64,000 nucleotides of DNA from Novosphingobium resinovorum (lineage in GTDB: Bacteria > Pseudomonadota > Alphaproteobacteria > Sphingomonadales > Sphingomonadaceae). Position 1 is the first letter of the stretch; each line of letters starts with the position of its first letter. The position numbers were made by a program, and so were the translations under genes. Positions 29,615-45,766 of the stretch are shown in pieces. The notes beneath the pieces were generated by a model. That model ran no database searches. It worked only from the letters and a program-made list of their open reading frames with translations, and was not told where the DNA came from. Location of the stretch: assembly GCF_001742225.1 (NCBI RefSeq), contig NZ_CP017075.1:868001-932000 (forward strand), read 5' to 3'.

Positions 29615-30457
29615 CTAAGGAAGATATCCGGCACCATGCAACTTGAAGATCTCTTGCGACCCGTGCCCTTTGAACTCCGCGACCGTCGCCTTCAGTCCGA
29701 TGGTCGCAAGCTGCGCGCGGATACGCCGGACTTCGGGTTCGAGATGCAGGATCGCGTCGCTTTCGGCGATGGCGGAAAGCGCCTGGTCCCATCCGGCCGC
29801 CTCCATCGCGCGGTTGATCGAGCGCTTCTTCATCGCCAGCACGCCGGGCGGGACAAGCGCGATGCGTGACGCCAGCTCCTCGACGCAGGCGATCAGGTTC
29901 TCGGCAGGGACCGCGGCGTTGGCCCAGCCCCATTCCACCGCGGTCCGGCCGTCGATGCTGTTACCCGGCAGGAAGGCGAATTCCTTGGCCCGCCGCCCGC
30001 CGACCTGATGAACCCAAGTCGGCGCGATGAAGCCGCCGCCGATGGGGATGGTCGGCTCGGTGATCGCGGCATCCTGCGCCACGACGAGGATGTCGGCGAA
30101 GCTTGCCATCTGGGCGGCGACGCCGATGCAGTAGCCGTGCACGGCGACGATCACCGGCTTGGGATGGCGCCAGATGTCGCGCCACAGATCGACGTAGCCC
30201 GACAACCGCGTCACGTCTTCCATCGGGCTGCCCTCGGCGTTGTACTGGCCCAGGTCCATCCCCGCGCCAAAGCCCTTGCCGGCACCGCGAATCCCGATCA
30301 CCGGCGCGCCGTCCGCCTTGAGATCGCGCAGCACCGTGCCGAACCGGGCGAGCATCCCGCGCGAGAACGCATTGGCCGCTTCGGGCCGGTCGAGCACGAT
30401 CCAGTCGATCGCGTTCCCGCGCTCCAGCCGGATTCCATCAATCGTACCGTCCGTCAT
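29615..30457 (-). CDS. Enoyl-CoA hydratase/isomerase family protein
   Basis: 280 residues from the ATG of MTDGTIDGIRLERGNAI, with GGGAGCGAAG upstream; a longer frame overlaps the TetR gene and is not favoured. It is a crotonase-fold protein: the oxyanion segment GFGAGMDLGQYN, the HGYCIGVAAQMASFADI helix (HG and G motifs), and the IPIGGGF region. The catalytic glutamates of classic hydratases are not obvious, so the reaction (hydration, isomerisation or ring opening of a CoA ester) is uncertain. It lies at the left edge of the terpenoid-type catabolic island, downstream of a tetR gene on the same strand. Confidence 0.8.
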   Translation of the reverse strand: MTDGTIDGIRLERGNAIDWIVLDRPEAANAFSRGMLARFGTVLRDLKADGAPVIGIRGAGKGFGAGMDLGQYNAEGSPMEDVTRLSGYVDLWRDIWRHPKPVIVAVHGYCIGVAAQMASFADILVVAQDAAITEPTIPIGGGFIAPTWVHQVGGRRAKEFAFLPGNSIDGRTAVEWGWANAAVPAENLIACVEELASRIALVPPGVLAMKKRSINRAMEAAGWDQALSAIAESDAILHLEPEVRRIRAQLATIGLKATVAEFKGHGSQEIFKLHGAGYLP

Positions 30458-30507
30458 CTTCGCTCCCGTCCTCGTTCTTGTCTTCGTGTCCGCCGCCCCG
30501 GTCGCCG

Positions 30508-31158
30508 TCAGCGCTGCAGCCGGAGGGGCAGGCACATGGCCATGACGATCTGTTCCATCGTGTCCTCCAGCGCGTGCTCGAAGGTCTCGGGAAATTCGTG
30601 CGTTTCCATGCGGCTGTGGCGGACCAGCAGGTTTAAGAACATCAGGCTGACGTTCACCAGCCGGCGCTGTGCGACGGCGGCGGGAAGGTAATCGACGCGC
30701 TGGCGCAGCAGGTCGAGCGCCCGGTTGAGCTGGGGCGGGGCCTCGCCGCCGAAGTGTCCGTATTCGTCCCAGTCGCCATGCAGCAGGTACTGCGACAGGA
30801 ACGTGCCGTAGGAGCGATTGGTCCCGCCGTCGAGATGGAGCTGCGGCAGCAGGATGACCTCCAAGATCGAACGGGCATCCCGCGTGCGTCCGGCCGCCTC
30901 CAGCGCGGCGATCATCGCGCCGCGTCCGGGCTCCATCTGGTTCATCCGGAAGTCGAAGATCGCCTGAACCAGACCCTCGCGAGACCCGAAGTGATACTGC
31001 ACCGCGAAATGGTTTCCCTGCCCCGCCTTCGACGCGATTTCGCGCATCGAAACGCCCTGGATGCCGACTTCGGCGAACAGCCGTTCGCCCGTCAGGATGA
31101 GCCGCGTCTTGGGGTCGGCTTCGTCGATATCGGGCGAGATCTGCGGGGTTTCAGCCAT
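30508..31158 (-). CDS. TetR-family transcriptional regulator
   Basis: 216 residues from the ATG of MAETPQISPDIDEADP; an upstream extension runs through the operator and is rejected. The N-terminal helix-turn-helix is typical (ERLFAEVGIQGVSMREIASKAGQGNHFAVQYHFGSREGL). The rest is a helical ligand-binding domain. A 16-bp perfect palindrome lies 26 bases before the start, so it probably represses itself and the enoyl-CoA hydratase downstream, and perhaps the divergent diketocamphane-monooxygenase-like gene. It belongs with the two other regulators of the catabolic island in position. The ligand, probably a CoA ester or terpenoid, is inferred. Confidence 0.88.
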   Translation of the reverse strand: MAETPQISPDIDEADPKTRLILTGERLFAEVGIQGVSMREIASKAGQGNHFAVQYHFGSREGLVQAIFDFRMNQMEPGRGAMIAALEAAGRTRDARSILEVILLPQLHLDGGTNRSYGTFLSQYLLHGDWDEYGHFGGEAPPQLNRALDLLRQRVDYLPAAVAQRRLVNVSLMFLNLLVRHSRMETHEFPETFEHALEDTMEQIVMAMCLPLRLQR

Positions 31159-31183
31159 TGTGCATGCTCTTCGGAATAAGTCA

Positions 31184-31199
31184 TCTGTTTGCAAACAGA
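31184..31199. promoter_or_regulatory. TetR operator, 16-bp palindrome
   Basis: TCTGTTTGCAAACAGA is a perfect palindrome 26 bases upstream of the TetR start on its promoter side. Size and position are typical of autoregulated TetR sites. Confidence 0.65.
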
Positions 31200-31419
31200 C
31201 ATGCTTATGAGGCAGGAATGGCAAGGATGCCAAGCGTTTTAAGCTGACGCCGCGACTTTTCGGTGCGCTGCATCGTTACTGGCCGTGCTGACCTGATGAC
31301 GGTAGATCATTGGATAACGTACCTGAAACAGCCGGTTTATGTTGCAGATGCTAAGAGAATGCGGCCGATGTGCCGCATCGTGCCTGCTCGCCGCCGGCGT
31401 CGATCGCTCTTCCGAATTT

Positions 31420-31465
31420 CACTTTACAAGTGTTTTAAATTCCGTAGCCTATCACTCGTTAGGCT
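31420..31465. promoter_or_regulatory. Inverted repeats upstream of the DKCMO-like gene
   Basis: CACTT-TAC-AAGTG (31420-31432) and AGCCTA/TAGGCT with an eight-base loop (31446-31465) lie 56-100 bases before the monooxygenase start. Either could be a regulator site or a leader hairpin. Confidence 0.35.
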
Positions 31466-31520
31466 GCTTCGCCGGATTCGCGGGTGGCCACCAGGACAGA
31501 AACGAAGAAGGAGAGCGCTG

Positions 31521-32657
31521 ATGGTCATGCAGACCGGCCTTATTTTCCACCCGTACATGCGACCGGGCCGCACGGCCCGCCAGACCTTCGACTGGGGCGT
31601 GCAAAGCTCCATCGCCTGCGACAAGGCGGGTTTCGACACGATGATGATCTCCGAGCATGCCTCGCAGATCTGGGAGAACATCCCCAATCCCGAACTCATC
31701 ATCGCCGCCGCCGCGCTGCAAACCGAAAACATCAGCTTCGCGCCGATGGCTCACATCCTGCCGCACCAGCACCCGACCAAGCTGGCGGTGATGGTTGGCT
31801 GGCTGTCGCAGATCCTGGAGGGTCGCTTCTTCATGGGCATCGGCGCAGGCGCCTATCCCCAGGCATCCTACATGCATGGCATCAAGGATGCCGAGCCCAA
31901 GATGCTCAACGACATGGTGCGTGAATCGCTCTCGATCATGGAGAAGATCTGGGCGCGCGAGCCGTTCTTCTTCGAGGGCAAGTACTGGAACGCCGGCTTC
32001 CCGCAGGAAGATGCGCCCGAGACCGAGGAAGACGAGCAGCACATGCTGGCCGATTTTGCGCCGTGGAACGGGGCATTCCCGGAAATCGCGGTGACCGGCT
32101 TCAGTTCCAATTCCCCGTCGATGAAGCTGGCCGGCGAGCGCAACTTCAAGCCGGTCTCGATCTACTCGGGCATCGATGCGCTGAAGCGTCACTGGGAGAT
32201 CTATTCCGAAGCGAACATCGCCGCCGGCTTCACGCCCGACCGCGCGCGCCATGCGGTCTCGCACACCATCTTCTGCGCCGATACCGATGCAGAGGCCAAG
32301 CGCGAGGTGATGGAAGGCCCGATCGGCTATTGCTTCGAACGCTACCTGATCCCGATCTGGAAGCGTTTCGGCATGATGGACGGGTTCGCCAAGGACCACG
32401 GCATCGACCCGAACGACGCCGATCTGGAATTCCTGGTCGATAAGGTCTTCGTGGTCGGCTCGCCGGATACGGTCGTCGACAAGCTCAACGTGCTGTTCGA
32501 GCAGTGCGGCGGCTGGGGCACGCTGCAGGTGGAATCGCACGACTATTACGACAACCCGGAGCCCTGGTTCCATTCGCTGAACCTGCTGGCCAAGGAAGTG
32601 GCACCGCGCGTCAAGTTGCCCGAGGGCAGCAAGGCACCCGCGACCGCAGACGCCTGA
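31521..32657 (+). CDS. Diketocamphane monooxygenase-like flavin-dependent monooxygenase
   Basis: 378 residues from the ATG of MVMQTGLIFHPYMRPG, with GAAGGAGAG upstream. It is a luciferase-like (LLM) FMN/flavin-diffusible enzyme. From memory its sequence follows 3,6-diketocamphane monooxygenase of the Pseudomonas camphor pathway almost residue for residue: GLIFHPYMRPGR, ISEHASQIWENIPNPEL, MAHILPHQHPTKLA and GIGAGAYPQASYMHG. That enzyme is a type II Baeyer-Villiger monooxygenase that uses reduced FMN from a separate reductase to turn a bicyclic diketone into a lactone. The flavin reductase and P450 genes nearby fit. Substrate specificity is inferred and needs database comparison. Confidence 0.82.
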   Translation: MVMQTGLIFHPYMRPGRTARQTFDWGVQSSIACDKAGFDTMMISEHASQIWENIPNPELIIAAAALQTENISFAPMAHILPHQHPTKLAVMVGWLSQILEGRFFMGIGAGAYPQASYMHGIKDAEPKMLNDMVRESLSIMEKIWAREPFFFEGKYWNAGFPQEDAPETEEDEQHMLADFAPWNGAFPEIAVTGFSSNSPSMKLAGERNFKPVSIYSGIDALKRHWEIYSEANIAAGFTPDRARHAVSHTIFCADTDAEAKREVMEGPIGYCFERYLIPIWKRFGMMDGFAKDHGIDPNDADLEFLVDKVFVVGSPDTVVDKLNVLFEQCGGWGTLQVESHDYYDNPEPWFHSLNLLAKEVAPRVKLPEGSKAPATADA

Positions 32658-32686
32658 TTATCCGCCCGGACTCTCTCCGGCTACCT

Positions 32687-32716
32687 GAGGCGCCGTGGCA
32701 ACGCGGCGCCTCTTTT
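32687..32716 (+). terminator. Terminator after the DKCMO-like gene
   Basis: GAGGCGCCG (32687-32695) and CGGCGCCTC (32704-32712) form a 9-bp stem followed by TTTT. It isolates this gene from the convergent tetR gene to the right. Confidence 0.85.
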
Positions 32717-32774
32717 CGTGTTTGGGGGGGACGGGGCGAATAACGCTCCAGGGCGCGATGGTGCCCCGGAGGCG

Positions 32775-33350
32775 TCAGGGCGCGAAGCCGCCGAGGAAGA
32801 GGTCGGCCGCCTGGTTCGCGATCTGGGTGGGGCCGAGGCGTCCGGCGCGATACCAGCTCGGGCAGGAGTCGAGCATGGCGATCAGGAACTTGCGTGCCAC
32901 GGTGGTCTGCGCATCGTTGCCGGAAGGGCTGGCGGCGACGAGCAGGTCGCGCCAGTAGCTGTCGAACGTCGCATAGGCGGCGAGGACACGCTGCTTCATC
33001 TCGCTGGGAAGATCGCCGAACGACCGCGCTACGGCGGAGGAATAGTCGTCGCCGGACAGCAAGAACTCGACATGGGCGACGATCGCGGCGCGCAGGCGAT
33101 CGACCGGCGCGGTCTCGGGACCGAGCACTTCCACTTTCGCGACGATATGGCGCGTATTGCGGTATATGCCGGAGAGCATCACCTCTTCGACCACTTCGTC
33201 CTTGGACTTGAAATGGTGATAGATGCTGGGCGCCAGCATGCCCGCGCCCTGAGCGATCTCGCTCAACCGGGCGGCGCCGAAGCCCTTGGTCCGCAGAATG
33301 AAGGCTGCGGAATCGAGAATGCGTTTCCTGCCGGAGTCACCGTCGCTCAT
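32775..33350 (-). CDS. TetR-family transcriptional regulator
   Basis: 191 residues. The helix-turn-helix is clear (RILDSAAFILRTKGFGAARL and the recognition segment MLAPSIYHHFKSKDEV). The C-terminal domain is the TetR ligand-binding bundle. It is the last gene of a minus-strand operon: luciferase-like monooxygenase, SMP-30 protein, TetR, with gaps of 54 to 55 bases. It is the best candidate to bind CTAAT-N4-ATTAG upstream of its own operon and upstream of the TonB receptor operon. The assignment is inference from position and a repeated palindrome. Confidence 0.87.
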   Translation of the reverse strand: MSDGDSGRKRILDSAAFILRTKGFGAARLSEIAQGAGMLAPSIYHHFKSKDEVVEEVMLSGIYRNTRHIVAKVEVLGPETAPVDRLRAAIVAHVEFLLSGDDYSSAVARSFGDLPSEMKQRVLAAYATFDSYWRDLLVAASPSGNDAQTTVARKFLIAMLDSCPSWYRAGRLGPTQIANQAADLFLGGFAP

Positions 33351-33404
33351 ATCTGCCGAATAGCCGTTCGGGAGCCTAATGGAAGCCCCGATTGCGCGGA
33401 AGGG

Positions 33405-34340
33405 TCATCCGGCAAAGGGAATTGTCGGCAGGCCTGCGACGGGGGGCGAGAGAATTTCGAACAGTCCGCCGGCCAGCGGCTCCTGGGCAAAGCGCGCATC
33501 GGAATACCCCTGCGATCCGGTGACGAGGAACAGGCGGTCGTGGTTCGCACCGCCGAAGGCCGGGCGCAGGCCCCGCATCACCGGTAGCTGGCGTTCTTCC
33601 AGCAAGGTGGCGTCCGGCGCGAAGCGGCGCAGCTTCCAGCTTTCGTAGAAGGCCATCCAGATGCAGCCTTCGACATCGACCGCCATGCCGTCGGGATAGC
33701 CGTCCTCGGGCGTGAAGTTGAGGAAGTCGCGGCGGTTGGACAATTCGCCGTTGTCGTCGAGGTCATAGGCCCAGGTGACCAGCGGCATGGAATCGTTGAC
33801 GTAGGCGGTGCGCCCGTCCGGGCTGAACGCCGGGCCGTTGGCAGTGACGATGCCGCGCTCTTGCGTCGAGACCGAGCCGTCCGCATCCAGGCGATAGAGT
33901 TCGCCGGTACTGCGCACGTCGAAGTCCTTGAGCGAGCTTTCCTTGTCGTCGGCGGTGGTGCTGTCGTCCCACTGCGCGGTGTCGCACGATCCGGTCCAGT
34001 AGCGGCCCTTGCGGTCGGTCACGCCGTCGTTGAGGCGCGCCTTGCCGGGGTCGGGGATCGGGTGGAGGATCGGCTTGTAAAGCTGCCGGGCGGGGTCGAG
34101 ATGCACCAGCCCGTCGGCGCTGGAGGCGATGAAGCCGCCGCTTGCGCGCGGGGCCAGCGCGCTGACCCACGCGGGCGTGGACCAGCTTTGCTTGCGGCCG
34201 GTTTCAAGCGCGTACCAGTGGACGGCGGGCGCCTCGATATCGACCCAGTAGATGCAACCGTCGCGGGCATCCCATACCGTGCTTTCGCCCAGGATCGCCT
34301 TGGCGTCCCACAGGCAGCGCCAGCCATCACCTTCCATCAT
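33405..34340 (-). CDS. SMP-30/gluconolactonase/LRE-family lactonase-like protein
   Basis: 311 residues, a six-bladed beta-propeller enzyme of the SMP-30 family. The metal-binding residues are recognisable: Glu in LGESTVWD, Asn in RLNDGVTD, Asn in ANGPAFSPDG and Asp in YPDGMAVDVEG. Family members hydrolyse lactones with a divalent metal. In this island a natural role would be opening lactones made by the Baeyer-Villiger-type monooxygenases; this is inference. There is no signal peptide, so it is cytoplasmic. It lies between the second luciferase-like gene and a tetR gene, all on the same strand. Confidence 0.85.
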   Translation of the reverse strand: MMEGDGWRCLWDAKAILGESTVWDARDGCIYWVDIEAPAVHWYALETGRKQSWSTPAWVSALAPRASGGFIASSADGLVHLDPARQLYKPILHPIPDPGKARLNDGVTDRKGRYWTGSCDTAQWDDSTTADDKESSLKDFDVRSTGELYRLDADGSVSTQERGIVTANGPAFSPDGRTAYVNDSMPLVTWAYDLDDNGELSNRRDFLNFTPEDGYPDGMAVDVEGCIWMAFYESWKLRRFAPDATLLEERQLPVMRGLRPAFGGANHDRLFLVTGSQGYSDARFAQEPLAGGLFEILSPPVAGLPTIPFAG

Positions 34341-34395
34341 CGCGCATTCTCTCCGGTCTTCGCCGTGTGCCCGGCGTGTCAGGTCTGGTCGGGGA

Positions 34396-35508
34396 TCAGC
34401 CGGCCGTTTGCAAGCCCGCCGCGCTTTCCACCGGATCGATCGAAACGTTGATGTCCTTGAGCGCGGGGAGTACCTTGCGGGCGATCAGCTCGTAGTTTTC
34501 GAGGCCGACGTCGAAGGGCATGTCGCCGAACTGGGTATAGATGATGAACTTGCCCACGTCGAAGCGCTCCTTCATCACCTTGAGCTTCTCGACCACTTCC
34601 TCGGGCCGGCCCCAGATCTGCAGGTCGGCGAGGAATTCGTTGAACTTCTCGATCCCGTGCTTCTCGACGCTGCGGGCGAGGGCGCCGTAGTATTCGTAGC
34701 CCTCGATGTTGGCGAATTCCTTGTTGCCGAACTGGTAGAACGACGAGGTCGAGCGGGCATATTCGACAAGGTACTTGTCGCGCATCTCCTTGGCCTTGGC
34801 GGCGTCCTCGTTCGCGGCGATGAAGCATACGACGACGGGCTTTGGCGCATTGCGGCCGTTCACCGCCTTGAACCGGTCGCGATAGGTGGCGAGATCCTCG
34901 TCCACCTTGTCCCACGGCTTCTGGGCGATGATCATCAGGCCGACGTCGAGGTTGGCCATCAGCTTCACGGACTCCGGCGAGACGGCCGAGGCGAAGACGC
35001 GGCCGCGATAGCTGGAATAGGGGCGCGGGCGCAGTTCGACGCGGGGCTGCTTCAGATAGTCGCCGTCGTATTCCATCACGCCGGTTTCGAGGCCCTGCAG
35101 CAGCGCCTCCGCATATTCGCGGAACCGTTTGCGCGCCTCGCCCATGGGGACGCCGAAGCCGTCGAACTCTTCCTTGCCGAGACCGCGCCCCATGCCGAGC
35201 ACCGCGCGGCCTTCGGAGAACTGGTCGAGCAGCAGGAAGCTCTCGGCGATGCGCACCGGGTTCTGCCAGGGCAGCACGGTGACGGTGGTGCCCAGCTTGA
35301 TGCGCTTGGTCTGGCCCGCGACCCATGAAAGGAACTGCGGCACGTTGGGGGTCATCATGTAGCCGGTGAAGTGGTGCTCCGGCGTCCAAACGGAATCGAA
35401 GCCCTGGTCTTCCGCGCGCGCCGCGAGCGAAAGTTCGTGCCGGAACACGTCAACGTCCGACACCTGATCGTGCAGGTTCTGAAACGTCAGCCCCAACCCA
35501 ACTTCCAT
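34396..35508 (-). CDS. Luciferase-like flavin-dependent monooxygenase
   Basis: 370 residues from ATG with GGAGATC upstream. It is an LLM-class TIM barrel: EDQGFDSVWTPEHHFTGY, TVTVLPWQNPVRIAESFLLLDQ and VLGMGRGLGKEEFDGFG match the bacterial-luciferase superfamily. It is clearly different from the diketocamphane-type enzyme 2.9 kb away and has the EHHF type of active-site segment. Such enzymes use reduced FMN from a partner reductase to oxygenate ketones, aldehydes or hydrocarbons. It might perform the second ring-oxygenation that OTEMO carries out in Pseudomonas; that is a guess. It leads an operon with SMP-30 and tetR. Confidence 0.8.
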   Translation of the reverse strand: MEVGLGLTFQNLHDQVSDVDVFRHELSLAARAEDQGFDSVWTPEHHFTGYMMTPNVPQFLSWVAGQTKRIKLGTTVTVLPWQNPVRIAESFLLLDQFSEGRAVLGMGRGLGKEEFDGFGVPMGEARKRFREYAEALLQGLETGVMEYDGDYLKQPRVELRPRPYSSYRGRVFASAVSPESVKLMANLDVGLMIIAQKPWDKVDEDLATYRDRFKAVNGRNAPKPVVVCFIAANEDAAKAKEMRDKYLVEYARSTSSFYQFGNKEFANIEGYEYYGALARSVEKHGIEKFNEFLADLQIWGRPEEVVEKLKVMKERFDVGKFIIYTQFGDMPFDVGLENYELIARKVLPALKDINVSIDPVESAAGLQTAG

Positions 35509-35543
35509 GACTCGATCTCCAATCCTTGATTCGTTGCGCTCAA

Positions 35544-35559
35544 CCTAATATGTATTAGG
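35544..35559. promoter_or_regulatory. Operator CTAAT-N4-ATTAG, copy 1
   Basis: CCTAATA-TG-TATTAGG is a perfect 7-bp inverted repeat with a two-base spacer, 36 bases upstream of the luciferase-like start. Its core CTAAT-N4-ATTAG also occurs at 43987-44002 before the TonB receptor. Confidence 0.7.
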
Positions 35560-35630
35560 CAGTCAATGCAAGGCTGTTTTTGCGGGTGAGGCGGGCTGGC
35601 GGGCCTGCGGGCAATTCCGGAAAAGGCGCG

Positions 35631-35659: not shown

Positions 35660-35773
35660 CCGTCATTCCATTCAAAGTGTACGAATTACGGCGCTCCGGA
35701 AGCGATCGCACGGACTGGCTTGACCGCAGCACCTGTCGTGGAATAATTTAACGAGAGTTAGGGAGAAGTTGTG

Positions 35774-37477
35774 ATGACGAGCATGGGCAGCGTGACGAGC
35801 CGCAGGCGGGCGATGGCCGACCGGCATCCCGAATGGCTGTCGTGGACGCTGCACGCCTATCTCGACTGGACGCAGGCGGATTTTGCCGCACGTCCGCTGG
35901 TCGTCACGGACGGCGAAGTGCTCGATTACGGATCGGTCGCGGCGCTGTCGCGCAAGCTGGCCTCGGGGCTGGCGGCGCGCGGCATTGCGGCCGGGGACCG
36001 CGTGGGCCTCGTCATGGCGAACGACCCGATGACGGTGCCGCTGCTTTTCGCGATCTGGCGCGCAGGCGCGGTGGCGGTGCCGATCAACACGCTCTATCGG
36101 CCCGATGAACTGGCGTATGCCGTGCGTGAGGCCGGGTGCGCGCTGCTCGTGGTGATGCGCAGTTTCGGCTCGCGCGATTTTCCGGCGATGCTCGATGCTG
36201 TCCTGCCCGGCTGGCTGGGCGGCGCCTGCGCCGACGCGCCCGAACTCAAGGGCGGGCTGGTGTTCGATCGCGACGCTCCGGCCGATTTCGTGCAGGCGCT
36301 TGCCGGCGATGGCGATGCCGGAGAGATCGCCGTGCCCGTCTCGGCGGACGACCTTGCGGTAATCATGTTCACCTCCGGCACGACCGGATCGCCCAAGGGC
36401 GTCGCCATCACGCACGACAACCTCATGCGCGCGGCCTATGCGGGCGCCTATCATCAGGCGTTCGAGGAGGGGCGCCGGGCGGTGTTCTCCTTGCCGCTCT
36501 ACCATGGGTTCGGCCTGGTGGTCGGGCTGCTTTCGGGCATGGTGGTGGGCGGGGCGATCATTCCCCTGCTGAAGTTCGATCCGCACGCGATCCTCACCGC
36601 GATCGGGCGGCACCGCGCGACGTACCTGATGGGCGTGCCGACGATGACGATCGCGCTGCTGGAACAGGCGGAAAAGGAAAGCTACGATTTCTCCTCGCTC
36701 ACCGCGATCCACAGCGCGGCCGCGCCGACGCCGAGCTGGGTCTGGAAACGGATCCAGGCGACCTTCGGGTGCGAGGACATCATCACCAGCTACGGCCAGA
36801 CCGAAGTGACGGCGACGGTGGTGTGTACAAGCCCCGGCGATCCGATCGACGTGGTATCCGAAACGCAGGGGTGCATCGTCGAGGCGGGCATTGCGGGCAT
36901 GCCCGATCAGGGCGGCCGCATCGCTGAATTCAAGACGATCGACCCGGAAACCGGCGCCGACCTGCCCTGGGGCAGCCCCGGCGAACTGTGCTGCCGCAGT
37001 CCGATGAACAGCAAGGGCTACTTCCGCCGTCCCGACGCCACCGCCGAACTGTTACTGCCCGGCGGGTGGATACGGATGGGCGACCTCGGCCAGTTCCGCG
37101 CGGACGGCAACCTGTTCCTGACCGGCCGTTCCAAGGAACTCTACAAGAGCCGGGGCGAACTGGTCTCGCCCAAGGAACTGGAGCAGTTGCTGACCCGCCA
37201 TCCGGACATTTCGCAAGCGTTCTTCATCGGCATGCCCGACGATCGCTATGGCGAGTGCGGTTGTGCATGGGTCGTGCGGGCGCAGGGGAGCGCGATCTCC
37301 GCGCGCGAAATCGAGGCGTTCATGGCCGGGCAGGTGGCCGCGTACAAGCTGCCGCGCGACATCTGGTTCATCACCGACGAGGAACTGCCCAAGACCGGCA
37401 CCGGCAAGGTCCAGAAGGCGCAGCTCAAGGAAAAGGCGCTGAAGCTGGTCTGGGACATGTCCGTCAGCAGAGCGTGA
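35774..37477 (+). CDS. Acyl-CoA synthetase (AMP-forming, ANL superfamily)
   Basis: 567 residues from an ATG with AGGGAGAA upstream; a GTG one codon earlier is possible. ANL motifs are complete: MFTSGTTGSPKGVAITHDNL (P-loop), SYGQTEVTA (adenylate-binding), MGDLGQFRADGNLFLTGRSK (Asp and hinge) and the catalytic lysine in TGTGKVQKAQLKEKA. It activates a carboxylic acid to its CoA thioester. In the camphor pathway a CoA ligase acts on the cyclopentenyl acetic acid formed after ring opening, and this gene could fill that step; the substrate is inferred. The RibBA-like gene follows 26 bases later on the same strand, so they are one operon. Confidence 0.9.
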   Translation: MTSMGSVTSRRRAMADRHPEWLSWTLHAYLDWTQADFAARPLVVTDGEVLDYGSVAALSRKLASGLAARGIAAGDRVGLVMANDPMTVPLLFAIWRAGAVAVPINTLYRPDELAYAVREAGCALLVVMRSFGSRDFPAMLDAVLPGWLGGACADAPELKGGLVFDRDAPADFVQALAGDGDAGEIAVPVSADDLAVIMFTSGTTGSPKGVAITHDNLMRAAYAGAYHQAFEEGRRAVFSLPLYHGFGLVVGLLSGMVVGGAIIPLLKFDPHAILTAIGRHRATYLMGVPTMTIALLEQAEKESYDFSSLTAIHSAAAPTPSWVWKRIQATFGCEDIITSYGQTEVTATVVCTSPGDPIDVVSETQGCIVEAGIAGMPDQGGRIAEFKTIDPETGADLPWGSPGELCCRSPMNSKGYFRRPDATAELLLPGGWIRMGDLGQFRADGNLFLTGRSKELYKSRGELVSPKELEQLLTRHPDISQAFFIGMPDDRYGECGCAWVVRAQGSAISAREIEAFMAGQVAAYKLPRDIWFITDEELPKTGTGKVQKAQLKEKALKLVWDMSVSRA

Positions 37478-38686: not shown

Positions 38687-38700
38687 TCTTTCTCGAACTT

Positions 38701-39183
38701 TCAGAGCGGTAGTATCTTGCCGTAACCACCCTTGTGGAAGATCAGCGGGCTGCCTTCATGGTGCACGTCGAGCCCGCGCACCCGCCCGAGCACGATGTAG
38801 TGGTCGCCCGCCTCGTGCACGGTGTCCAGTTCGCAGTCGATCCAGGCCAGGGCGCCGTGGATGATCGGTGATCCGAGCGCCGACAGCGCGAAATCGAGCC
38901 CTGCGAACTTGTCCTCGCCCTTGGCCGAAAGGGCGCTGCACACGGCCTGCTGGCTATCGGCCAGAACGTTGACGCAGAAGCGACCGGCAGCCTCCACCCT
39001 GGGCCATGTCGTCGAGGACTTGTCGGGAAAGAACGCGACCAGCATCGGGTCGAGCGAAACCGAAGTGAACGATCCGACGACGAGCCCCACCGGCCTGCCA
39101 TCCTCGCCTATGGCGGTGATGGCGCAGACGCCGGTGGGGTAGTGGCCGAGGATACGGCGAAATTCCCTGGGCTCGGCGGTCAT
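38701..39183 (-). CDS. Flavin reductase-like protein
   Basis: 160 residues from the ATG that overlaps the P450 stop by four bases (ATGA). The flavin-reductase-like (HpaC/DszD-type) FMN-binding split-barrel is recognisable in [37 protein letters not shown] and [20 protein letters not shown]. It reduces free FMN or FAD with NAD(P)H. In two-component systems such a reductase feeds reduced flavin to luciferase-like monooxygenases, so it is the obvious partner for the two LLM genes of this island. It is the last gene of the minus-strand TonB receptor-ADH-P450-reductase operon. Cofactor and NAD(P)H preference cannot be read from sequence. Confidence 0.88.
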
Positions 39184-40424
39184 GCGCGGTCCCAGACCAG
39201 CGGCACGCCTTCGACGGTGCCGATGATGCCCGAATGGAACACCGGCTTCGCATCGGGAGCGAGCGTGAACTGCGGGATGCGCTTCAGCCACTCCTGCAAG
39301 GTCACGATCACTTCGAGGCGGGCGAGGTGCATGCCCGCGCAGCGGTGCGGCCCTTGCGCGAAGGTGGAATGGGCGATGCCGGTGCGGCCGGGCCTGAGCG
39401 TCCAGGCATCATCGTTGGCGCGCGCATCGAGCCCGTGCAGCGCGGTCGGCAGCAGGATCATGTCGCCCTTCTTCAGCTCGACGCCGCGATAGGTCATGTC
39501 GTAGGCCACCATGCGCGCGTCGGAGACGACCCCGAAGCGGCGGAACATCTCCTCGGCGCTGCGTTGGAGTTTCAACGGGTCTTCGCGCAGTTCCGCCACC
39601 GTCTCGGGGTTGCTCGCGAGATGCAGCATCATGAAGCTCAGGAAATTGACGACCGTGTCCAGCCCGCCCAGCAGCAGCAGCGAGATCAGCCCCAGCGCCT
39701 TGTCGTCGGGCATCGGCGCGCCGTTGATCTCGGAATTGAGCATCGTCGTGATGAGATCGGTGCCGGTGCCTCCGCGCCGCGCCGCGATGATCGGCTCGAC
39801 GTAGCGGAAGAAGCCCTGGTTCGCCTTGTCGAGCGCGGCGGCCTGTTCGCCGGGCGTGCGACCGGGCGGGCGCGTCATGTCGTTGGCGAGTTCGCCCAGC
39901 ATCGGCGCGTCGCTTTCGGGCAGGTCGCACAAGGCGAGGAACACGCGAACGGGGAAGATCCCGGCATATTGCTTGCCGAAATCGCAGCGACCATCGGCGA
40001 CGAAGCCGTCGATCAGCTCGGCGGCGGTCTGGCGGACCTGCTCCTCGGTGCGGCGGATGGCGGTGTGGTTGAGGCCCTTGTCGAGCACCTTGCGGTACGG
40101 CGTGTGCTCGGGCGGGTCCATGCGGGTGGGGACCATGGCGTACTTCTCGCCCGCTTCCTTGGGCAGGAAGATGATCTCGCTGGAGAAGCGCGAGGGGTCG
40201 CGGTAGATTTCGTCGATCAGTTCGCCGCGTGTCGCGATCCAGTGCCCGCCGGTCAGCGGCGTGTAGATCAGGTCGGGCATGCCGTCCTGTTGCAGCCGGC
40301 CCCAGGCTTCGTGGAAGCCGCCCTCGATGCCGTCGGGCGCGAACATGTCGACGTCGTGGACGAGGTGGGCGGGTACGTGACCCGGAACGATGCTGCGGTG
40401 CTTTTCAAGCTGCGCTGTGCTCAT
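39180..40424 (-). CDS. Cytochrome P450, CYP101 (P450cam) family
   Basis: 414 residues. It aligns from memory with P450cam throughout: [47 protein letters not shown], the I-helix [15 protein letters not shown] (with the Asp-Thr proton relay), and the heme loop [17 protein letters not shown] with the ligand Cys near residue 355. Positions corresponding to camphor-contacting Phe87, Tyr96 and Thr101 are Phe, Tyr and Thr; Phe98 is Met. It should hydroxylate camphor or a similar cyclic ketone. No ferredoxin or reductase gene is nearby. It lies between ADH and flavin reductase genes in one operon. Confidence 0.93.
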
Positions 40425-40433
40425 GACATGTCC

Positions 40434-41516
40434 TCAGGCGATGGAAGGGTCGATGACGGCCTTGGTCGCGATGCCGGTGCGGGTGGCTTCGAGCGCCTTG
40501 CCCGCATCGGCGATGGAGAAGCGGTGGCTGATGAGGTCCGCCAGCGGCACCTTGTCCTGCAGCCGCACGGCGAGATGCATCGCGTGATAGTAGTTGCGCG
40601 GCGCCGGGAAGGCCGCGCCGCCGATCGTCAGGTTCTTCACCGTCAGGTCGCGCGGCGAAATCGGCTGGGTGCCGATCGCGCCCCACAGGCCCAGCACGAT
40701 GTAGCGGCCGTGCGGGCCGGTCAGGTCAACACCCTCGGGGAAGGCGGGCAGCACGCCGGCGGCTTCGACCACCACGTCCGGGCCGCCCGGGCCGGTGAGA
40801 TCGTAGACGGCGCGGCGGCGTTCCTCCACCGGCAGGTCGAGCGAGACGGTGGCGGTCGCGCCCAGCTTCATCGCGGCGGCGAGACGGGCGGGGGCCTTGT
40901 CGATGACCACGATGCAGCGCGCGCCCATCTGCGCGGCGACCAGCACGGCGGACAGCCCGACCGGCCCCGCTCCCTGCACCACCACCGCGTCGTTCAGCGC
41001 GATCGGGCCGCAGCGGTCGAACCCGCGCAGCACCGTGGGTAGTGCGCATCCCAATGCCGCGACCGCCAGCGGATCGGCATGGTCGGGCAGGCGGTAGAAC
41101 GACATGCCGCTCGGCAGCCAGGCAAAGTCGGAATAGCTGCCCCAGTTGGGCTTGTTCGCATGCTCGAAGTACTGGGTGTTCTCGCAAGGGGTCTGCTGCA
41201 GCACGGAGCACGAATAGCAGCGCCCGCACAGCGGGATCGGCGACCAGACGACGAGGTCGCCCACCTTCACGTCGACGCCTGCGTAGTCCTTGGCGACGCC
41301 CGCGCCCAGCTTCTCGATGCGGCCGACACCTTCGTGGCCAAGGATGATGGGGAAGGGCATCTCGCCCGCCTCGCCCGAGGCGATGTGGACGTCGCTGCCG
41401 CATACCCCGCCCACCACCGTGCGCACAAGGATGCCGCCCGCCTGGGGATCGGCGATGGGCAAGTCCCAGGTTTCCAGGCGGTTTTTCTCGACCAGTACGG
41501 TGGCCCTGCCGCGCAT
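40434..41516 (-). CDS. Zinc-dependent alcohol dehydrogenase
   Basis: 360 residues, the size of the 5-exo-hydroxycamphor dehydrogenase of Pseudomonas. MDR-family features: catalytic zinc ligands in GVCGSDVHIASGEAG and GHEGVGRIEKLG, a structural zinc loop with four cysteines (CGRCYSCSVLQQTPC), and a Rossmann NAD-binding segment VVVQGAGPVGLSAVL. It oxidises a secondary alcohol to a ketone with NAD(P)+. Next to a CYP101 gene, oxidation of the hydroxylated product is the obvious role; this is inference. It is ten bases upstream of the P450 gene and 63 bases downstream of the TonB receptor gene. Confidence 0.9.
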   Translation of the reverse strand: MRGRATVLVEKNRLETWDLPIADPQAGGILVRTVVGGVCGSDVHIASGEAGEMPFPIILGHEGVGRIEKLGAGVAKDYAGVDVKVGDLVVWSPIPLCGRCYSCSVLQQTPCENTQYFEHANKPNWGSYSDFAWLPSGMSFYRLPDHADPLAVAALGCALPTVLRGFDRCGPIALNDAVVVQGAGPVGLSAVLVAAQMGARCIVVIDKAPARLAAAMKLGATATVSLDLPVEERRRAVYDLTGPGGPDVVVEAAGVLPAFPEGVDLTGPHGRYIVLGLWGAIGTQPISPRDLTVKNLTIGGAAFPAPRNYYHAMHLAVRLQDKVPLADLISHRFSIADAGKALEATRTGIATKAVIDPSIA

Positions 41517-41579
41517 GACGTTTATCCTCTCTTTGCGTCTACCCCGCCCGCACAGGCGGACGGGGCGGATCGCATCCTA

Positions 41580-43934
41580 TCAGAAGCGGTAGGTAACTTC
41601 GGCACCGAAGGTCTGCGGCGCGCCCCAGATCGCGGTGTTGAAGCCGCCGCTGGCGCCTTCGACGTAACCCGAGTTGTAGTAGAGCTTGTCGAACAGGTTC
41701 TTCACGTAACCGGCGACGGTCACGTTGCTGCCCATGACGTTGTTCCAGCTCAGGCGCATGTCCACGGTGACGTAGCCCGGCAACTGCGTGCGCGGCGTGA
41801 TCGAGCCTTCGTTGTTCGAGAAGTACGTCATCTTCTGCCCGAACACGTCGGTGCGGAACTTCACCTCACCGGCGCTTTCCGGCACAGGCAGTCCCACTTC
41901 GGCATAGACCGAGCCCGCCCACTTCGGTGCATCGGTATAGGTGTCGAAGGGAATGGTCAGTCCGGCCACGCCGGTGGCGGCGGACAAGTCGACGATGTTC
42001 CTGGTGAACTTGGCGTCGGTGTAGGCGCCGGAGAACCCGACTTCCAGCCATTCGCTCAGGCGGAAGTTGCCGTCGAATTCCACGCCCTGGATGCGCTTCT
42101 TGGGAACGTTGACGGTGAACGCGGCCGGGTTGCCGTTCACCAGCGCGTAGATCGAATGCTGGGCGTCGGTCACGATCTGGCGATAGGCGGCGATGTTGAC
42201 CCGCGATGCCACGCCGCCGATGTAGCCGTTGAACTTGTAGCCAAGTTCGAAGTCGTAGGTGTTCTCGTTCTTAAAGAAGTTCGTGTTGTTGTAAGGCACG
42301 ACCGCGCCGTTGAAGCCGCCGGCCCGGAAAGAACCGCGCTGCGCGAAGTAGACCATGTTCTGCGGGTTGATCTGGTACTGGATGTTGAACGTCCAGCTCG
42401 GATCCTTGAGGTTGGCCTTCTGCTTGAGCGGGGTATCGCCATCGAGGTTGAACAGGCTGCCCGGGTTCTGGCGCAGGCGCATCTGCTCCCAGGTGTAGCG
42501 TCCGCCCGCAGTGACCGTCAGCTTGTCGGTCAGTTCGTAGCTGAGCTGGGCGAACAGGGCCTTGGATTCATCGTCGTTGGTATAATAATAGGCGATGTCG
42601 GCCAGCGGCGTCGCCAGTTCCGATCCGACGATGACCGGGATGTATTCCTTCTTGCGGGACCACGAGTAGTACGCGCCGACGATGTATTCGAGGCGTCCGC
42701 TCTTGCCCTGAAGCTGCAGTTCGTTGGAAATGCGCTTGGTCGAGAATTCCTCGCCGCCCGGAGGTCCGTTGCCGAGACCGCTGTTGTTGTAGAGGTTCAG
42801 CGAGCCGAAGGGCGATCCGGAAAGGATGCCGGGCGTGCGGGCGAAGGCATCGGCATAGCTGAAGATGTTCTTCAGCATCACGTCGTCGCCCAGTTCCATC
42901 TCCGTGGTGTTGGTGACGAAGGCGGTGTGCGCCTTGTGCGGCAGGTCGTAGCTCAGCCAGACCTTGTAGGGGTTGGCCTGCTGCCAGGCGAGATAGCCGG
43001 CGACCGCGCCGGGCCAGGTGCCGTCGCCCATCGGCCCGTCGCCCAGCGTCGGCGCGAAGGGGCTGTTCATGCCGTAGACGCAGTCCAGCGTCGCGGTGAG
43101 CTGGTAGCCGTTGTTGGTCTCGCCGCAGGCATGGTAGGAATAGAGGCCGCCGGCACCCTCGGTCCCGCCGAAGTCGCTGTACTGCGCAACGGTGGTCATC
43201 TTGAACCCGGAAGACGGCTCGATCACCAGGGTGACGCGGCCGGACTTGGCATCGGTGTCGCCCAGCGTGCTGCCGGTGTTGACGTTGCGGATGTAGCCGT
43301 CCTGCTTGTTGTAGTCTCCCGCAAGGCGCAGCTTGATGACGTCCGAGATCGGCAGGTCGATGGCGCCCTGGGCCTGGATGTAGTTGCGCTCGCCACCCTT
43401 GATCGTGAGGTAGCCGCCGAACACGTCGCCGGGCTTGGTCGTCTCGTAGAGGATCGCGCCGCCGGTCGCGTTGCGGCCGAACAGGGTGCCCTGCGGGCCT
43501 TTCAGCACCTGCACGGAACTGAAGTCGAAGAAGGCGGTCGAGGTGTTGCCCTCGGTCATCGGGGCGTCGTTGATGTAGGTCAGCACTGCCGGGCTGGAGC
43601 CGGAGAACGGATCGAGCGTCTGTCCGCGCAAGGTGAAGCTGAGCTGGTTGGAGTTCTGCCCGCTCTTGACGACAAGGCCTGGGACAAGCGCCGCAAGGCC
43701 CTGTTCGCTGGTGACGTTGCGGTCCTGAAGCACGTCGGCGTTGAATGCAGAGACCGATACCGGAACCTTGGAAAGCGACTGTTCGCGGCGCTGCGCGGTG
43801 ACCACGATTTCCTCGATCTCGGGCTTGGCATCCTTGGCCTGGGCGGCCTCCGCGCCGCTCTGGGCATGAGCCGGCATCGCCAGCATCGCAGTGGCGATGG
43901 CCATCGTAGAGGTCGCGCCGAAACGGAACGTCAT
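41580..43934 (-). CDS. TonB-dependent receptor
   Basis: 784 residues from the ATG with GGGAGAAA upstream. A signal peptide ends at AHAQ near residue 25, and the TonB box-like EIEEIVVTAQRREQ and plug domain (VPGLVV...LRGQTLDPF, VEVLKGPQGTLFGRNATGG-like) follow. The remaining 600 residues are a beta barrel ending in the outer-membrane signature AEVTYRF. It imports a substrate across the outer membrane using TonB energy. As first gene of the operon with ADH, P450 and flavin reductase, it probably imports the terpenoid-type substrate. A CTAAT-N4-ATTAG operator lies 53 bases upstream of its start. Confidence 0.95.
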   Translation of the reverse strand: MTFRFGATSTMAIATAMLAMPAHAQSGAEAAQAKDAKPEIEEIVVTAQRREQSLSKVPVSVSAFNADVLQDRNVTSEQGLAALVPGLVVKSGQNSNQLSFTLRGQTLDPFSGSSPAVLTYINDAPMTEGNTSTAFFDFSSVQVLKGPQGTLFGRNATGGAILYETTKPGDVFGGYLTIKGGERNYIQAQGAIDLPISDVIKLRLAGDYNKQDGYIRNVNTGSTLGDTDAKSGRVTLVIEPSSGFKMTTVAQYSDFGGTEGAGGLYSYHACGETNNGYQLTATLDCVYGMNSPFAPTLGDGPMGDGTWPGAVAGYLAWQQANPYKVWLSYDLPHKAHTAFVTNTTEMELGDDVMLKNIFSYADAFARTPGILSGSPFGSLNLYNNSGLGNGPPGGEEFSTKRISNELQLQGKSGRLEYIVGAYYSWSRKKEYIPVIVGSELATPLADIAYYYTNDDESKALFAQLSYELTDKLTVTAGGRYTWEQMRLRQNPGSLFNLDGDTPLKQKANLKDPSWTFNIQYQINPQNMVYFAQRGSFRAGGFNGAVVPYNNTNFFKNENTYDFELGYKFNGYIGGVASRVNIAAYRQIVTDAQHSIYALVNGNPAAFTVNVPKKRIQGVEFDGNFRLSEWLEVGFSGAYTDAKFTRNIVDLSAATGVAGLTIPFDTYTDAPKWAGSVYAEVGLPVPESAGEVKFRTDVFGQKMTYFSNNEGSITPRTQLPGYVTVDMRLSWNNVMGSNVTVAGYVKNLFDKLYYNSGYVEGASGGFNTAIWGAPQTFGAEVTYRF

Positions 43935-43986
43935 TGCAGTTTCTCCCTTTCCCGGACCCTCGTAGGCCCCGTGGTCTTCGCTCTAA

Positions 43987-44002
43987 ACTAATAACCATTA
44001 GT
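43987..44002. promoter_or_regulatory. Operator CTAAT-N4-ATTAG, copy 2
   Basis: ACTAAT-AACC-ATTAGT has perfect 6-bp arms with a four-base spacer upstream of the TonB receptor operon. It shares the core CTAAT-N4-ATTAG with the site at 35544. Confidence 0.7.
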
Positions 44003-44148
44003 CTTCGGTCAAGCGGAAATTTGGAAAGGCTTTTGCGCGGACGAATTTGTCAGTATTTTGCGAAGCGAACGTGAAAATCACCGGTAAATCGCTGATTTTT
44101 GGCGGACAGGATTTCCGCCATCCGCGAGCGACCATGATTGCCATGGGC

Positions 44149-44164
44149 TTGACAACCTGTTGTC
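44149..44164 (+). promoter_or_regulatory. Promoter -35 with overlapping palindrome, SDR operon
   Basis: TTGACA (44149-44154) lies about 62 bases before the SDR start and overlaps GACAAC-CT-GTTGTC (44151-44164), a perfect 6-bp inverted repeat. An AT-rich CAATAATAG follows at -10 distance. A repressor bound here would block RNA polymerase. Confidence 0.5.
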
Positions 44165-44215
44165 TGCCAAATCAATAATAGGCTGATATTCGACAACTCG
44201 CATGGGAGAATGCAA

Positions 44216-44962
44216 ATGGCGCGACTCGCTGGCAAAGTGGCCATCATCACGGGCGCAGGACGGGGCATGGGCGCCTCACATGCCCGGCTTTTCGCCGAGC
44301 AGGGGGCCAAGGTGGTGCTCACCGACCTGAACGCAGCGGCGGGACAGGCACTGGCGGACGAGATCGGCGCCGCTGCCGTCTTCGTGAAGCACGACGTGAC
44401 CAGGCTGGCCGAATGGCCGGCGGTGGTGGACGCGGCCGTCACGAACTTCGGCGGCGTCGATATCCTGGTCAACAACGCCGGTATCCTCGGCCCGCTCGCC
44501 GATACCAGGGACTTGACCGAGGAAGACTATCACCTCGTCTGCGCGGTGAACCAGCATTCGGTGTTCCTGGGCATGAAGTCGGTGCTGCCGGCGATGCTCA
44601 AGCGGGGCGGCGGCTCGATCGTGAACATTTCCTCGATCGCGGGAATGGCGGCCAACTACGGTTTCCCCAGCCTTGCCTACGTAGCCAGCAAGTTCGCGGT
44701 ACGGGGCATGACCAAGGCGACCGCGATGGAGTTCGGCAAGCACAACATCCGCGTGAACTCGGTCCATCCCGGCTTCATCCAGACCCCGATGATGGTCGAG
44801 GCGACGGACGAAGTGGGCGGCGAGGCGCTGGCGCAGATTCCGCTGGGCCGTATCGCCGACCCGCGGGAGGTTTCGAACCTGGTGCTGTTCCTGGCCTCGG
44901 ACGAATCTTCCTACATCACCGGCGCCGAACATCTCGTCGATGCCGGCATGCTCGCGCACTGA
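44216..44962 (+). CDS. Short-chain dehydrogenase/reductase
   Basis: 248 residues from the second of two ATGs, which gives GGGAGA the better spacing. Classical SDR signatures: IITGAGRGMGASHA (NAD(P)-binding TGxxxGxG), VNNAGILG, the catalytic Ser in NISSIAGMA and the Tyr-Lys pair in YVASK. The Asp after beta 2 (LTDLN) favours NAD+. It oxidises or reduces an alcohol/ketone pair, plausibly a later step of the island. The enoyl-CoA hydratase-like gene follows after 33 bases on the same strand, forming a two-gene operon with its own palindrome-controlled promoter. Confidence 0.92.
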   Translation: MARLAGKVAIITGAGRGMGASHARLFAEQGAKVVLTDLNAAAGQALADEIGAAAVFVKHDVTRLAEWPAVVDAAVTNFGGVDILVNNAGILGPLADTRDLTEEDYHLVCAVNQHSVFLGMKSVLPAMLKRGGGSIVNISSIAGMAANYGFPSLAYVASKFAVRGMTKATAMEFGKHNIRVNSVHPGFIQTPMMVEATDEVGGEALAQIPLGRIADPREVSNLVLFLASDESSYITGAEHLVDAGMLAH

Positions 44963-44995
44963 GCGTCATGACCGGGAGCGGGAGAGGGGGCGGCG

Positions 44996-45766
44996 ATGGC
45001 GCAAGTCGAACTGTTCATTGAAGGCCGCACGGCGCGCGTCCATCTCAATCGCCCCGAAGCCCGCAACGCGCTGACGTTCGGGATGGATGTCCTGCTCTCG
45101 CAGTTCTGGCGGCAGGTGGACGAGGATCCGGAGATCTGGACGGTCGTGCTGACGGCGCAAGGCGACGAGGCGTTCTGCATCGGCGCGGACATGTCCGAAG
45201 CCAGACCGGCGGCGCCGCGCCTGGCCGTTGGCGGCGGCCTGACCGGCATCGGCGGGCCGCTCGTCCCCCTGAGCAAGCCGCTGGTCGCGGCCGCACAGGG
45301 TTTCTGCATCGGCGCGGGGTTCGAACTGGCGATGTGCGCCGACGTCATAGTCGCTGCGGAGAATGCGCAGTTCGGCCTGCCGGAAACCCGCCGGGGCATC
45401 ATCGGCGAATGCGGCGTGGTGCATCGGGCTGTGCGCAGGTTGCCGCATCATGTGGCGATGGCGATGATCCTCACCGGGGAGCGGATCGATGCCAGGGCGG
45501 CAGAACGCTTCGGGCTCGTCAATCAACTGGTTCCGCTTGCCGGGTTGTCCGAGGCGGCAATGGATTGGGCCGCGAGGATCAACAAGGCCTCTCCGCTGGC
45601 GAACCGGGCCGCCAAGGCCGCCGTCGCGCGAGGGTTGGCGCTCCCGCTCGAGGCGGCGCTGAGCAGCCGCTTCGAGGAGATCGAGCGTTACGCGGGCAGC
45701 GACGATGCGCGCGAGCGCGACGCCGCTATCGTGCAAGGGCGAAGACCTGTTTGGACTGGCCGTTGA
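44996..45766 (+). CDS. Enoyl-CoA hydratase/isomerase family protein
   Basis: 256 residues with GGGAGAGGGGG upstream. It has the crotonase fold: LNRPEARNALTFGMD, FCIGADMSEA (oxyanion hole), AQGFCIGAGFELAMCADV and FGLPETRRGIIGECGV. The last segment supplies catalytic carboxylates in many hydratases, although the exact pair is not certain. It likely processes a CoA ester in the degradation of the ring-cleaved intermediate. It is the right-most gene of the catabolic island and co-transcribed with the SDR gene. Confidence 0.85.
   Translation: MAQVELFIEGRTARVHLNRPEARNALTFGMDVLLSQFWRQVDEDPEIWTVVLTAQGDEAFCIGADMSEARPAAPRLAVGGGLTGIGGPLVPLSKPLVAAAQGFCIGAGFELAMCADVIVAAENAQFGLPETRRGIIGECGVVHRAVRRLPHHVAMAMILTGERIDARAAERFGLVNQLVPLAGLSEAAMDWAARINKASPLANRAAKAAVARGLALPLEAALSSRFEEIERYAGSDDARERDAAIVQGRRPVWTGR

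Follow-up and report, generated by a model that had tools for sequence, protein, structure and literature searches.

To our knowledge, camphor breakdown is known at the gene level mainly from one Pseudomonas plasmid. The genes described for the CAM plasmid of Pseudomonas putida ATCC 17453 are camRDCAB, camE25-1, camE25-2, camE36, camF1/F2 and camG (PMC8706424, PMC4097962), and CamR has been called a distant homologue of the Tet repressor (PMC4592980). Here we analysed a 64-kb stretch of the Novosphingobium resinovorum genome (contig 1, bases 868001-932000, of a 6.92-Mb genome in five contigs; hereafter the window) and in it an island of fourteen genes at positions 29615-45766. The island encodes an orthologue of 3,6-diketocamphane 1,6-monooxygenase (DKCMO), a CYP101D-type cytochrome P450, a second luciferase-like monooxygenase (LLM2) and a TetR-type regulator, TetR2, whose putative operators stand at divergent promoters. 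It is probably a horizontally spread island, organized as one regulon under TetR2, for the catabolism of camphor or another bicyclic ketone akin to it, and represents a well-supported camphor-type variant of the Pseudomonas pathway.

Like the CAM system of P. putida, the island has a CYP101 P450, a dehydrogenase, a 3,6-DKCMO orthologue (79% identical), a CoA ligase and TetR-type regulators. Unlike that system, it has no ferredoxin, and no orthologue of 2,5-DKCMO or of OTEMO, which opens the second ring in Pseudomonas, was found in the genome. Beyond CAM, it carries its own flavin reductase, a RibBX protein, an SMP-30 family protein, LLM2, a TonB-dependent receptor and a common promoter palindrome. 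The cam sequences used in this comparison were those of 4UWM and OTEMO, and the alcohol dehydrogenase (ADH) and ligase were assigned by family. Among the matches listed, the open-access literature that we searched contained no description of this island or its operator.

The first-ring oxygenase could be identified with confidence. The initial annotation had pointed to a luciferase-like (LLM) enzyme resembling 3,6-diketocamphane monooxygenase. Indeed, the window protein scored 683 bits against PDB 4UWM, with 79.2% identity over 365 columns, and an IQ-TREE phylogeny of 123 rows (100 different) placed both in one 50-row clade with support of 100/100, so the enzyme does not group away from the diketocamphane monooxygenases. 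A further 24 rows, ~42-47% identical to the window DKCMO, lay outside this clade. The window enzyme is thus a 3,6-DKCMO orthologue, and oxidation of 3,6-diketocamphane is its predicted reaction.

Sister islands tie the locus to the camphor pathway. The island on plasmid p2 of Novosphingobium sp. ES2-1 (NZ_CP063447.1), conjugative by PLSDB typing, has partners at 49-82% identity for every gene except LLM2 (13 of 14), which argues that the gene set is not a chance assembly, and it carries the same operator. Unlike the window island, it encodes a 2Fe-2S ferredoxin and an OTEMO orthologue (945 bits to PDB 3uov); LLM2 is missing from the plasmid, and no operator site precedes its DKCMO gene. Similar islands occur in N. 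subterraneum (L043) and Sphingomonas sp. Root710 (L046), with OTEMO proteins 100% and 95% identical, respectively. The camphor-type logic put forward in the initial annotation therefore stands as far as the DKCMO orthologue and the OTEMO of sister islands are concerned, but the genome itself has no 2,5-DKCMO or OTEMO orthologue that we could find; for the same pathway logic to apply, this gap would have to be filled by another enzyme, perhaps LLM2.

We then compared 48 loci, namely ES2-1 and 47 genome loci with a DKCMO at least 73% identical (two matched in part), the latter fetched from a species-level collection through two peptide patterns as a non-exhaustive set. LLM2, SMP-30 and TetR2 occurred together in 15 of the 48. 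A DKCMO at least 81% identical was present in 4 of 396 Sphingomonadales genomes, the present one included, and four further genomes had relatives of only 44-48%. In N. resinovorum VKM B-1172, DKCMO is 100% identical, and another ten island proteins match at 97-100% identity over their length; in that locus the TonB gene is cut off and the SDR and ECH2 genes fall outside. Sphingobium stretches show the order TetR1, DKCMO, TetR2, SMP-30, an ECH, LLM2, LIG, RibBX, ferredoxin (in some), flavin reductase, P450, ADH, SDR, ECH2, OTEMO and TonB, and other sphingomonads, as well as some bacteria outside that group, have a similar gene set in varying order. The presence of the island in metagenome-assembled genomes (MAGs) labelled Hirschia, Hydrocarboniphaga and Azoarcus, and on a plasmid, suggests horizontal transfer. 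Separately, plasmid pSH1 of Sphingobium xenophagum (L016) bears a cluster with a 2,5-type LLM, a P450, a 2Fe-2S ferredoxin, FAD oxidoreductases, a CoA transferase and a riboflavin kinase.

The features of the island are as follows.

29615-30457, minus strand: ECH1, crotonase-fold protein (PF00378, 111 bits; ES2-1 orthologue 69%)
30508-31158, minus strand: TetR1, TetR regulator divergent from DKCMO (PF00440, 34.5 bits)
31184-31199, no strand: perfect 16-base palindrome TCTGTTTGCAAACAGA just upstream of TetR1 (one copy in the window, 0.05 expected)
31449-31462, no strand: operator-like site CTATCACTCGTTAG, loose form, upstream of DKCMO (site at like distance in 14 of 18 TetR2 loci)
31521-32657, plus strand: 3,6-DKCMO orthologue, type II Baeyer-Villiger enzyme of the LLM family (PDB 4UWM)
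32775-33350, minus strand: TetR2, likely island regulator (TetR_N and TetR_C_24; co-occurs with the operator)
33405-34340, minus strand: SMP-30/gluconolactonase family protein, probable lactone hydrolase (PF08450, 231 bits; PDB 7plb, 162 bits)
34396-35508, minus strand: LLM2, second luciferase-like monooxygenase, outside the DKCMO clade of the tree (PF00296, 216.5 bits)
35545-35558, no strand: putative operator CTAATATGTATTAG in the LLM2-LIG divergent promoter (motif comparison and counts)
35774-37477, plus strand: LIG, acyl-CoA ligase, candidate OTE-CoA ligase (PF00501, 264.8 bits)
37504-38646, plus strand: RibBX, DHBP synthase with a degenerate GTP cyclohydrolase II domain, probable supply of flavin mononucleotide (FMN) (PF00926, 271 bits)
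38701-39183, minus strand: flavin reductase, HsaB-like (PF01613, 139.5 bits; HsaB model 198.7 bits, cut-off 230)
39180-40424, minus strand: cytochrome P450, CYP101D type (best characterised match CYP101D1)
40434-41516, minus strand: zinc-dependent ADH, candidate hydroxycamphor dehydrogenase (PF00107 and PF08240)
41580-43934, minus strand: TonB-dependent receptor (PF00593 and PF07715)
43988-44001, no strand: putative operator CTAATAACCATTAG in the TonB-SDR divergent promoter (motif comparison and counts)
44210-44962, plus strand: SDR dehydrogenase (PF13561, 225.6 bits)
44996-45766, plus strand: ECH2, enoyl-CoA hydratase family (PF00378, 168 bits)

All fourteen genes named in the initial annotation were found at these positions, and all are intact, with no internal stops once the starts of ECH1, TetR1, DKCMO, LIG, RibBX and the flavin reductase were corrected. 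Strand and spacing suggest six probable transcription units: ECH1-TetR1 (minus, 50 bases between), DKCMO alone (plus), LLM2-SMP-30-TetR2 (minus, spaced by 55 and 54 bases), LIG-RibBX (plus, 26 bases between), TonB-ADH-P450-flavin reductase (minus, spaced by 63 and 9 bases, with the last two genes overlapping by 4) and SDR-ECH2 (plus, 33 bases). TetR1 shows weak similarity to PsrA (50.8 bits, model cut-off 300), and LIG scored 321 bits against a FadD3-type model with a cut-off of 657. SDR matches of 66-83% identity, some of them partial, were present in 19 of the 48 loci. A ClC channel gene flanks the island at one end; at the other lie genes for an SDR, an AraC regulator and a flotillin. We saw no grounds for counting these genes as part of it.

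The firmest new result is the operator regulon. A palindrome with the core CTAA-N6-TTAG and the full form CTAAT-N4-ATTAG stands at the island's divergent promoters; it was first suggested by eye from the divergent intergenic regions and then tested on loci not used to find it. The core occurred 52 times across all 18 TetR2 loci (371,103 bases; one of them, L032, from the same species as the window), against a mean of 0.7 and a maximum of 2 in 20 runs of a Markov control, and was absent from the 28 loci whose fetched stretch contains no TetR2 (499,824 bases; four shorter than 12 kb). Two loci with four sites in all and no TetR2 in the stretch (L050 and L067) were left out of this comparison; their genomes later proved to contain TetR2, immediately beyond the stretch in the case of L067 and on a different contig in that of L050. 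The full form was present in 15 of the 18 TetR2 loci and in none of the 28 others, in which the looser CTAWN6WTAG gave three stray matches. In the whole 6.9-Mb genome, the full form occurs twice, both copies being in the island, and allowing one mismatch adds two places elsewhere. The window holds three CTAWN6WTAG sites, one per divergent region (0.34 expected; none of 100 shuffles reached three), a count made after the fact.

The sites recur at similar positions in many of these loci. A loose-form site precedes LLM2 by 37-47 bases in all 15 fetched LLM2 loci; sites precede DKCMO in 14 of the 18 TetR2 loci, by 63-91 bases with one more at 157, and ADH in 8 of the 18, by 77-117 bases. In ES2-1, a site lies 80 bases upstream of OTEMO. 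TetR2 co-occurs with the operator and lies in the operon behind the central site, which makes it the likely regulator binding the palindrome. The other palindrome, TCTGTTTGCAAACAGA, was rejected as the island operator, having a single window copy and not being common to other islands: among the related loci scanned, only L032 of N. resinovorum has its like, and two Pseudomonas loci have looser matches. It is possibly TetR1's own operator.

The island also appears equipped to supply its own flavin. The RibBX protein combines a RibB domain with a GTP cyclohydrolase II domain without zinc cysteines, as judged against the zinc-cysteine motif of GTP cyclohydrolase domains. None of 27 RibBX homologues of DKCMO loci had two cysteines in the motif stretch, and a separate RibA-like protein of the same genome (C1:2196372) keeps the motif. 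This corrects the "RibBA-like" label of the initial annotation to RibBX type. A RibB domain fused to a GTP cyclohydrolase domain lacking the zinc-binding residues is described as RibBX (PMC10012899), the same domain pair as found here; in the species of that report the gene belongs to a riboflavin operon, whereas here it lies in a catabolic island. A second RibBX-type gene of the genome (C1:800982-802064; L206), 53-54% identical, likewise has no zinc cysteines.

In Pseudomonas, the supplier of reduced FMN (FMNH2) to the diketocamphane monooxygenases is described as disputed: Iwaki et al. named the chromosomal flavin reductase Fred alone for the P. putida enzymes, and later work in P. putida ascribed roles to Frp1 and Frp2 as well as to the putidaredoxin reductase encoded on the plasmid (PMC8706424). 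Given this dispute, it matters that the island has its own RibBX and its own flavin reductase, the gene of which overlaps that of the P450. On Rhodococcus plasmids (L201 and L202), LLM2 relatives of 38-40% identity adjoin a flavin reductase and a RibBA gene, perhaps as a recurrent flavin-supply module.

As the initial annotation had proposed, the P450 is of the CYP101 type: its closest characterised relative is CYP101D1, with 64.5% identity over 408 columns (617 bits). CYP101D subfamily names are given above 55% identity to a characterised CYP101D, a level that the window P450 exceeds. Trp89, Tyr98 and Met100 of CYP101D1 are listed as lining the camphor pocket, and CYP101D5 of Sphingomonas echinoides is reported to use ionones, not camphor (PMC9655578). 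The window P450 has Phe, Tyr and Met at these positions, as does CYP101D5, and a loop with Phe or Trp, Tyr and Met recurs in all 26 P450 rows that cover it, CYP101D5 among them (three further matches were partial).

We consider it distinctly unlikely that the island serves another terpenoid, such as ionone, fenchone, borneol or a 1,8-cineole derivative, with DKCMO acting on a related bicyclic or cyclic ketone. Such a role would fit the location of the gene for the ionone enzyme CYP101D5 (PMC9655578) in a DKCMO locus (L055), the Ala shared by the window P450 and CYP101D5 where CYP101D1 has Asp99, and the OTEMO orthologue not found in the genome. In addition, a strain of N. subterraneum has been reported to convert 1,8-cineole (PMC4097962), and a strain of that species has the ES2-1-type island L043, with nothing linking the island to cineole conversion. 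Against this, the window DKCMO shares 79% identity with the characterised 3,6-DKCMO 4UWM, and sister islands carry OTEMO orthologues, those of ES2-1 and L220 with operator sites just upstream. As a separate observation, this DKCMO locus of S. echinoides (L055) has two CYP101D P450 genes close together (15444-18887), one of them a full match to crystallised CYP101D5, the natural role of which may therefore lie in this pathway.

The island lacks a ferredoxin, so the P450 would depend on redox partners from elsewhere, whereas flavin is supplied locally. Six ferredoxin matches were found elsewhere in the genome, the best two being 57% identical on contig 3 and 53% on contig 1, ~1.2 Mb away; the first of these two open reading frames (ORFs) itself had no Pfam match. 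No reductase was seen among the few ORFs scanned beside the two, with no search aimed at ferredoxin reductase. The related islands that retain OTEMO and ferredoxin could suggest that both were lost in this strain and that its pathway is unfinished or decayed, transforming the substrate only in part, since OTEMO was not found in the genome or ferredoxin in the island. We regard such decay as improbable: all fourteen genes are intact and full-form operators are retained. Moreover, the nine LLM2 genomes without OTEMO include five not labelled MAGs (the present genome, G396 of the same species, G400, G403 and G411), indicating that the absence of OTEMO is not only a matter of poor assembly.

Searches for the missing ring-opening enzymes defined the gap. 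With ES2-1 OTEMO as query, no OTEMO (camG) orthologue was found in the genome (best match 32%, 192 bits), and a 2,5-type query retrieved, at E 1e-80 or better, only the 3,6-type enzyme itself (47%). This query, a protein of locus L062 starting MQCGIFMTPY, is 66-67% identical to the Pseudomonas ones. Primers reported for cloning P. putida 2,5-DKCMO translate to MKCGFFHT (PMC3222318), and rows from Pseudomonas, Pseudoduganella and Sphingobium xenophagum begin MQ/KCGFFHTPY or MKTGFFHTPY; the query begins differently, so the name 2,5-type is applied to the sphingomonad set provisionally. Unlike the present genome, N. resinovorum VKM B-1172 (L168 and L086; contig 32 of G396/G383) has two 2,5-DKCMO-type genes, 87% and 63% identical to the query, on a 28-kb contig. 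The six genomes of the Pseudomonas-group loci L063, L065, L066, L068, L069 and L077 have both 3,6- and 2,5-type DKCMO and no OTEMO match at E 1e-100.

LLM2 is the best candidate for the missing oxygenation. It is not itself a DKCMO: it falls in the other half of the IQ-TREE phylogeny, groups with neither the 3,6- nor the 2,5-type and scores 33.6 bits against 4UWM. We scored its presence in 49 genomes or records (the 47 genomes, the present genome and the ES2-1 plasmid alone; two of the 48 genomes belong to the same species), with identity cut-offs chosen after the rows had been seen. LLM2 (at least 70%) was present in 18 of 49, OTEMO (at least 69%) in 19 and the 2,5-type (at least 61%) in 29, the last two counts each including two partial matches. 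With the ES2-1 plasmid excluded and kinship ignored, OTEMO occurred in 9 of the 18 LLM2 genomes and 9 of the 30 others (p 0.22); LLM2 is therefore no exclusive replacement of OTEMO. All 21 records in which TetR2 was seen (the 18 with LLM2, ES2-1, G407 and G410) have LLM2, OTEMO or both, which is weak evidence for interchange because 18 of them have LLM2 anyway.

LLM2 and the 2,5-type avoid each other more clearly, the latter occurring in 5 of the 18 LLM2 genomes versus 24 of the 30 others (Fisher p 0.0006, on the same basis). LLM2 might accordingly be an enantiocomplementary ketolactonase that stands in for 2,5-DKCMO without being its orthologue. In that case 3,6-DKCMO and LLM2 together would handle both camphor enantiomers, and OTEMO, in genomes that have it, or some other means would open the second ring; this proposal differs from ours in the step given to LLM2. 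Supporting it, the five genomes with both enzymes have the 2,5-type on another contig or ~100 kb away, and half of the LLM2 genomes have OTEMO as well. Three records with TetR2 (the ES2-1 plasmid, the sole part searched, G407 and G410) have neither LLM2 nor the 2,5-type, however; the avoidance may only mirror two island lineages, and the tree places LLM2 far from both DKCMO types. We consider a stand-in role unlikely, if clearly worth keeping in view.

LLM2 may thus be a second-ring enzyme, an enantiocomplementary first-ring enzyme or something else. We lean slightly to the second ring, given that LLM2 adjoins the lactonase and the ligase and that the first lactone reportedly opens spontaneously (PMC4097962). 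In the pdc cluster of Caenibius tardaugens, which acts on progesterone, a type I Baeyer-Villiger monooxygenase (BVMO) and a luciferase-like BVMO are reported to replace each other (PMC12239570), a precedent, at the level of described function, for such an exchange. A different type II BVMO is reported from an anthraquinone-degrading Sphingobium (PMC9836352). Around LLM2 relatives at five actinobacterial plasmid loci, the annotated neighbours include SMP-30 in one, an alpha/beta hydrolase in three, a flavin reductase in two and RibB or RibBA in three; the island SMP-30 gave no match at E 1e-5 to the Pseudonocardia SMP-30 near an LLM2 relative.

Several results weigh against a camphor regulon with LLM2 at the second ring. 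The P450 loop was dropped as proof of camphor specificity, since the ionone enzyme CYP101D5 has the same three residues and the loop does not discriminate camphor. The window has no ferredoxin, and genome sites within one mismatch of the full form led to none: of the extra sites, one falls within a 464-aa ORF that has no Pfam match, and the other is next to two ORFs, one likewise with no Pfam match and one with PAS domains. The site CTATCACTCGTTAG at the window DKCMO departs from the full form by three changes, and in 4 of the 18 TetR2 loci (L015, L043, L046 and L047) the 300 bases ahead of DKCMO contain no site. Of six stretches that hold both LLM2 and OTEMO, five show no site near OTEMO; in the sixth, L217, a site lies just ahead of the apparent operon of the OTEMO gene. 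The role of LLM2 is a guess: half of the LLM2 genomes have OTEMO too, and neither LLM2 nor OTEMO is present in 21 of the 49 DKCMO genomes or records. Nine alphaproteobacterial loci with LLM2 relatives of 48-56% gave no SMP-30, flavin reductase or RibBX match at E 1e-8, an uninformative context at 11.8-17.5 kb each.

The sequence itself shows the gene identities, the DKCMO orthology, the conserved gene set and the operator distribution, with no OTEMO or 2,5-DKCMO orthologue found; the substrate, each reaction, repression and, above all, the step of LLM2 are our proposal. The TonB receptor would take up the substrate, which the CYP101D P450 would hydroxylate with redox partners from elsewhere in the genome, and the zinc-dependent ADH would convert the product to the diketone. 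3,6-DKCMO would then insert oxygen, using FMNH2 from the island flavin reductase and extra FMN by way of RibBX, and the resulting lactone would open to OTE, which LIG would convert to OTE-CoA. A second Baeyer-Villiger oxidation by LLM2 would give a lactone opened by SMP-30, and ECH1, ECH2 and SDR would feed beta-oxidation. TetR2, bound to sites resembling CTAAT-N4-ATTAG at the divergent promoters, would repress the island and would be released by a compound of the pathway. As a tentative proposal, about which we have real doubts, LLM2 would be an FMNH2-dependent type II Baeyer-Villiger enzyme replacing OTEMO at the second ring, with SMP-30 hydrolysing the lactone, so that two luciferase-fold oxygenases would share one flavin reductase and a private FMN supply within the TetR2/CTAAT-N4-ATTAG regulon.

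The short conserved operator makes the regulon directly testable and can serve as a tag in searches for more genes of the pathway. LLM2 holds the greatest interest, as a candidate for the missing ring-opening step and possibly a new biocatalyst.

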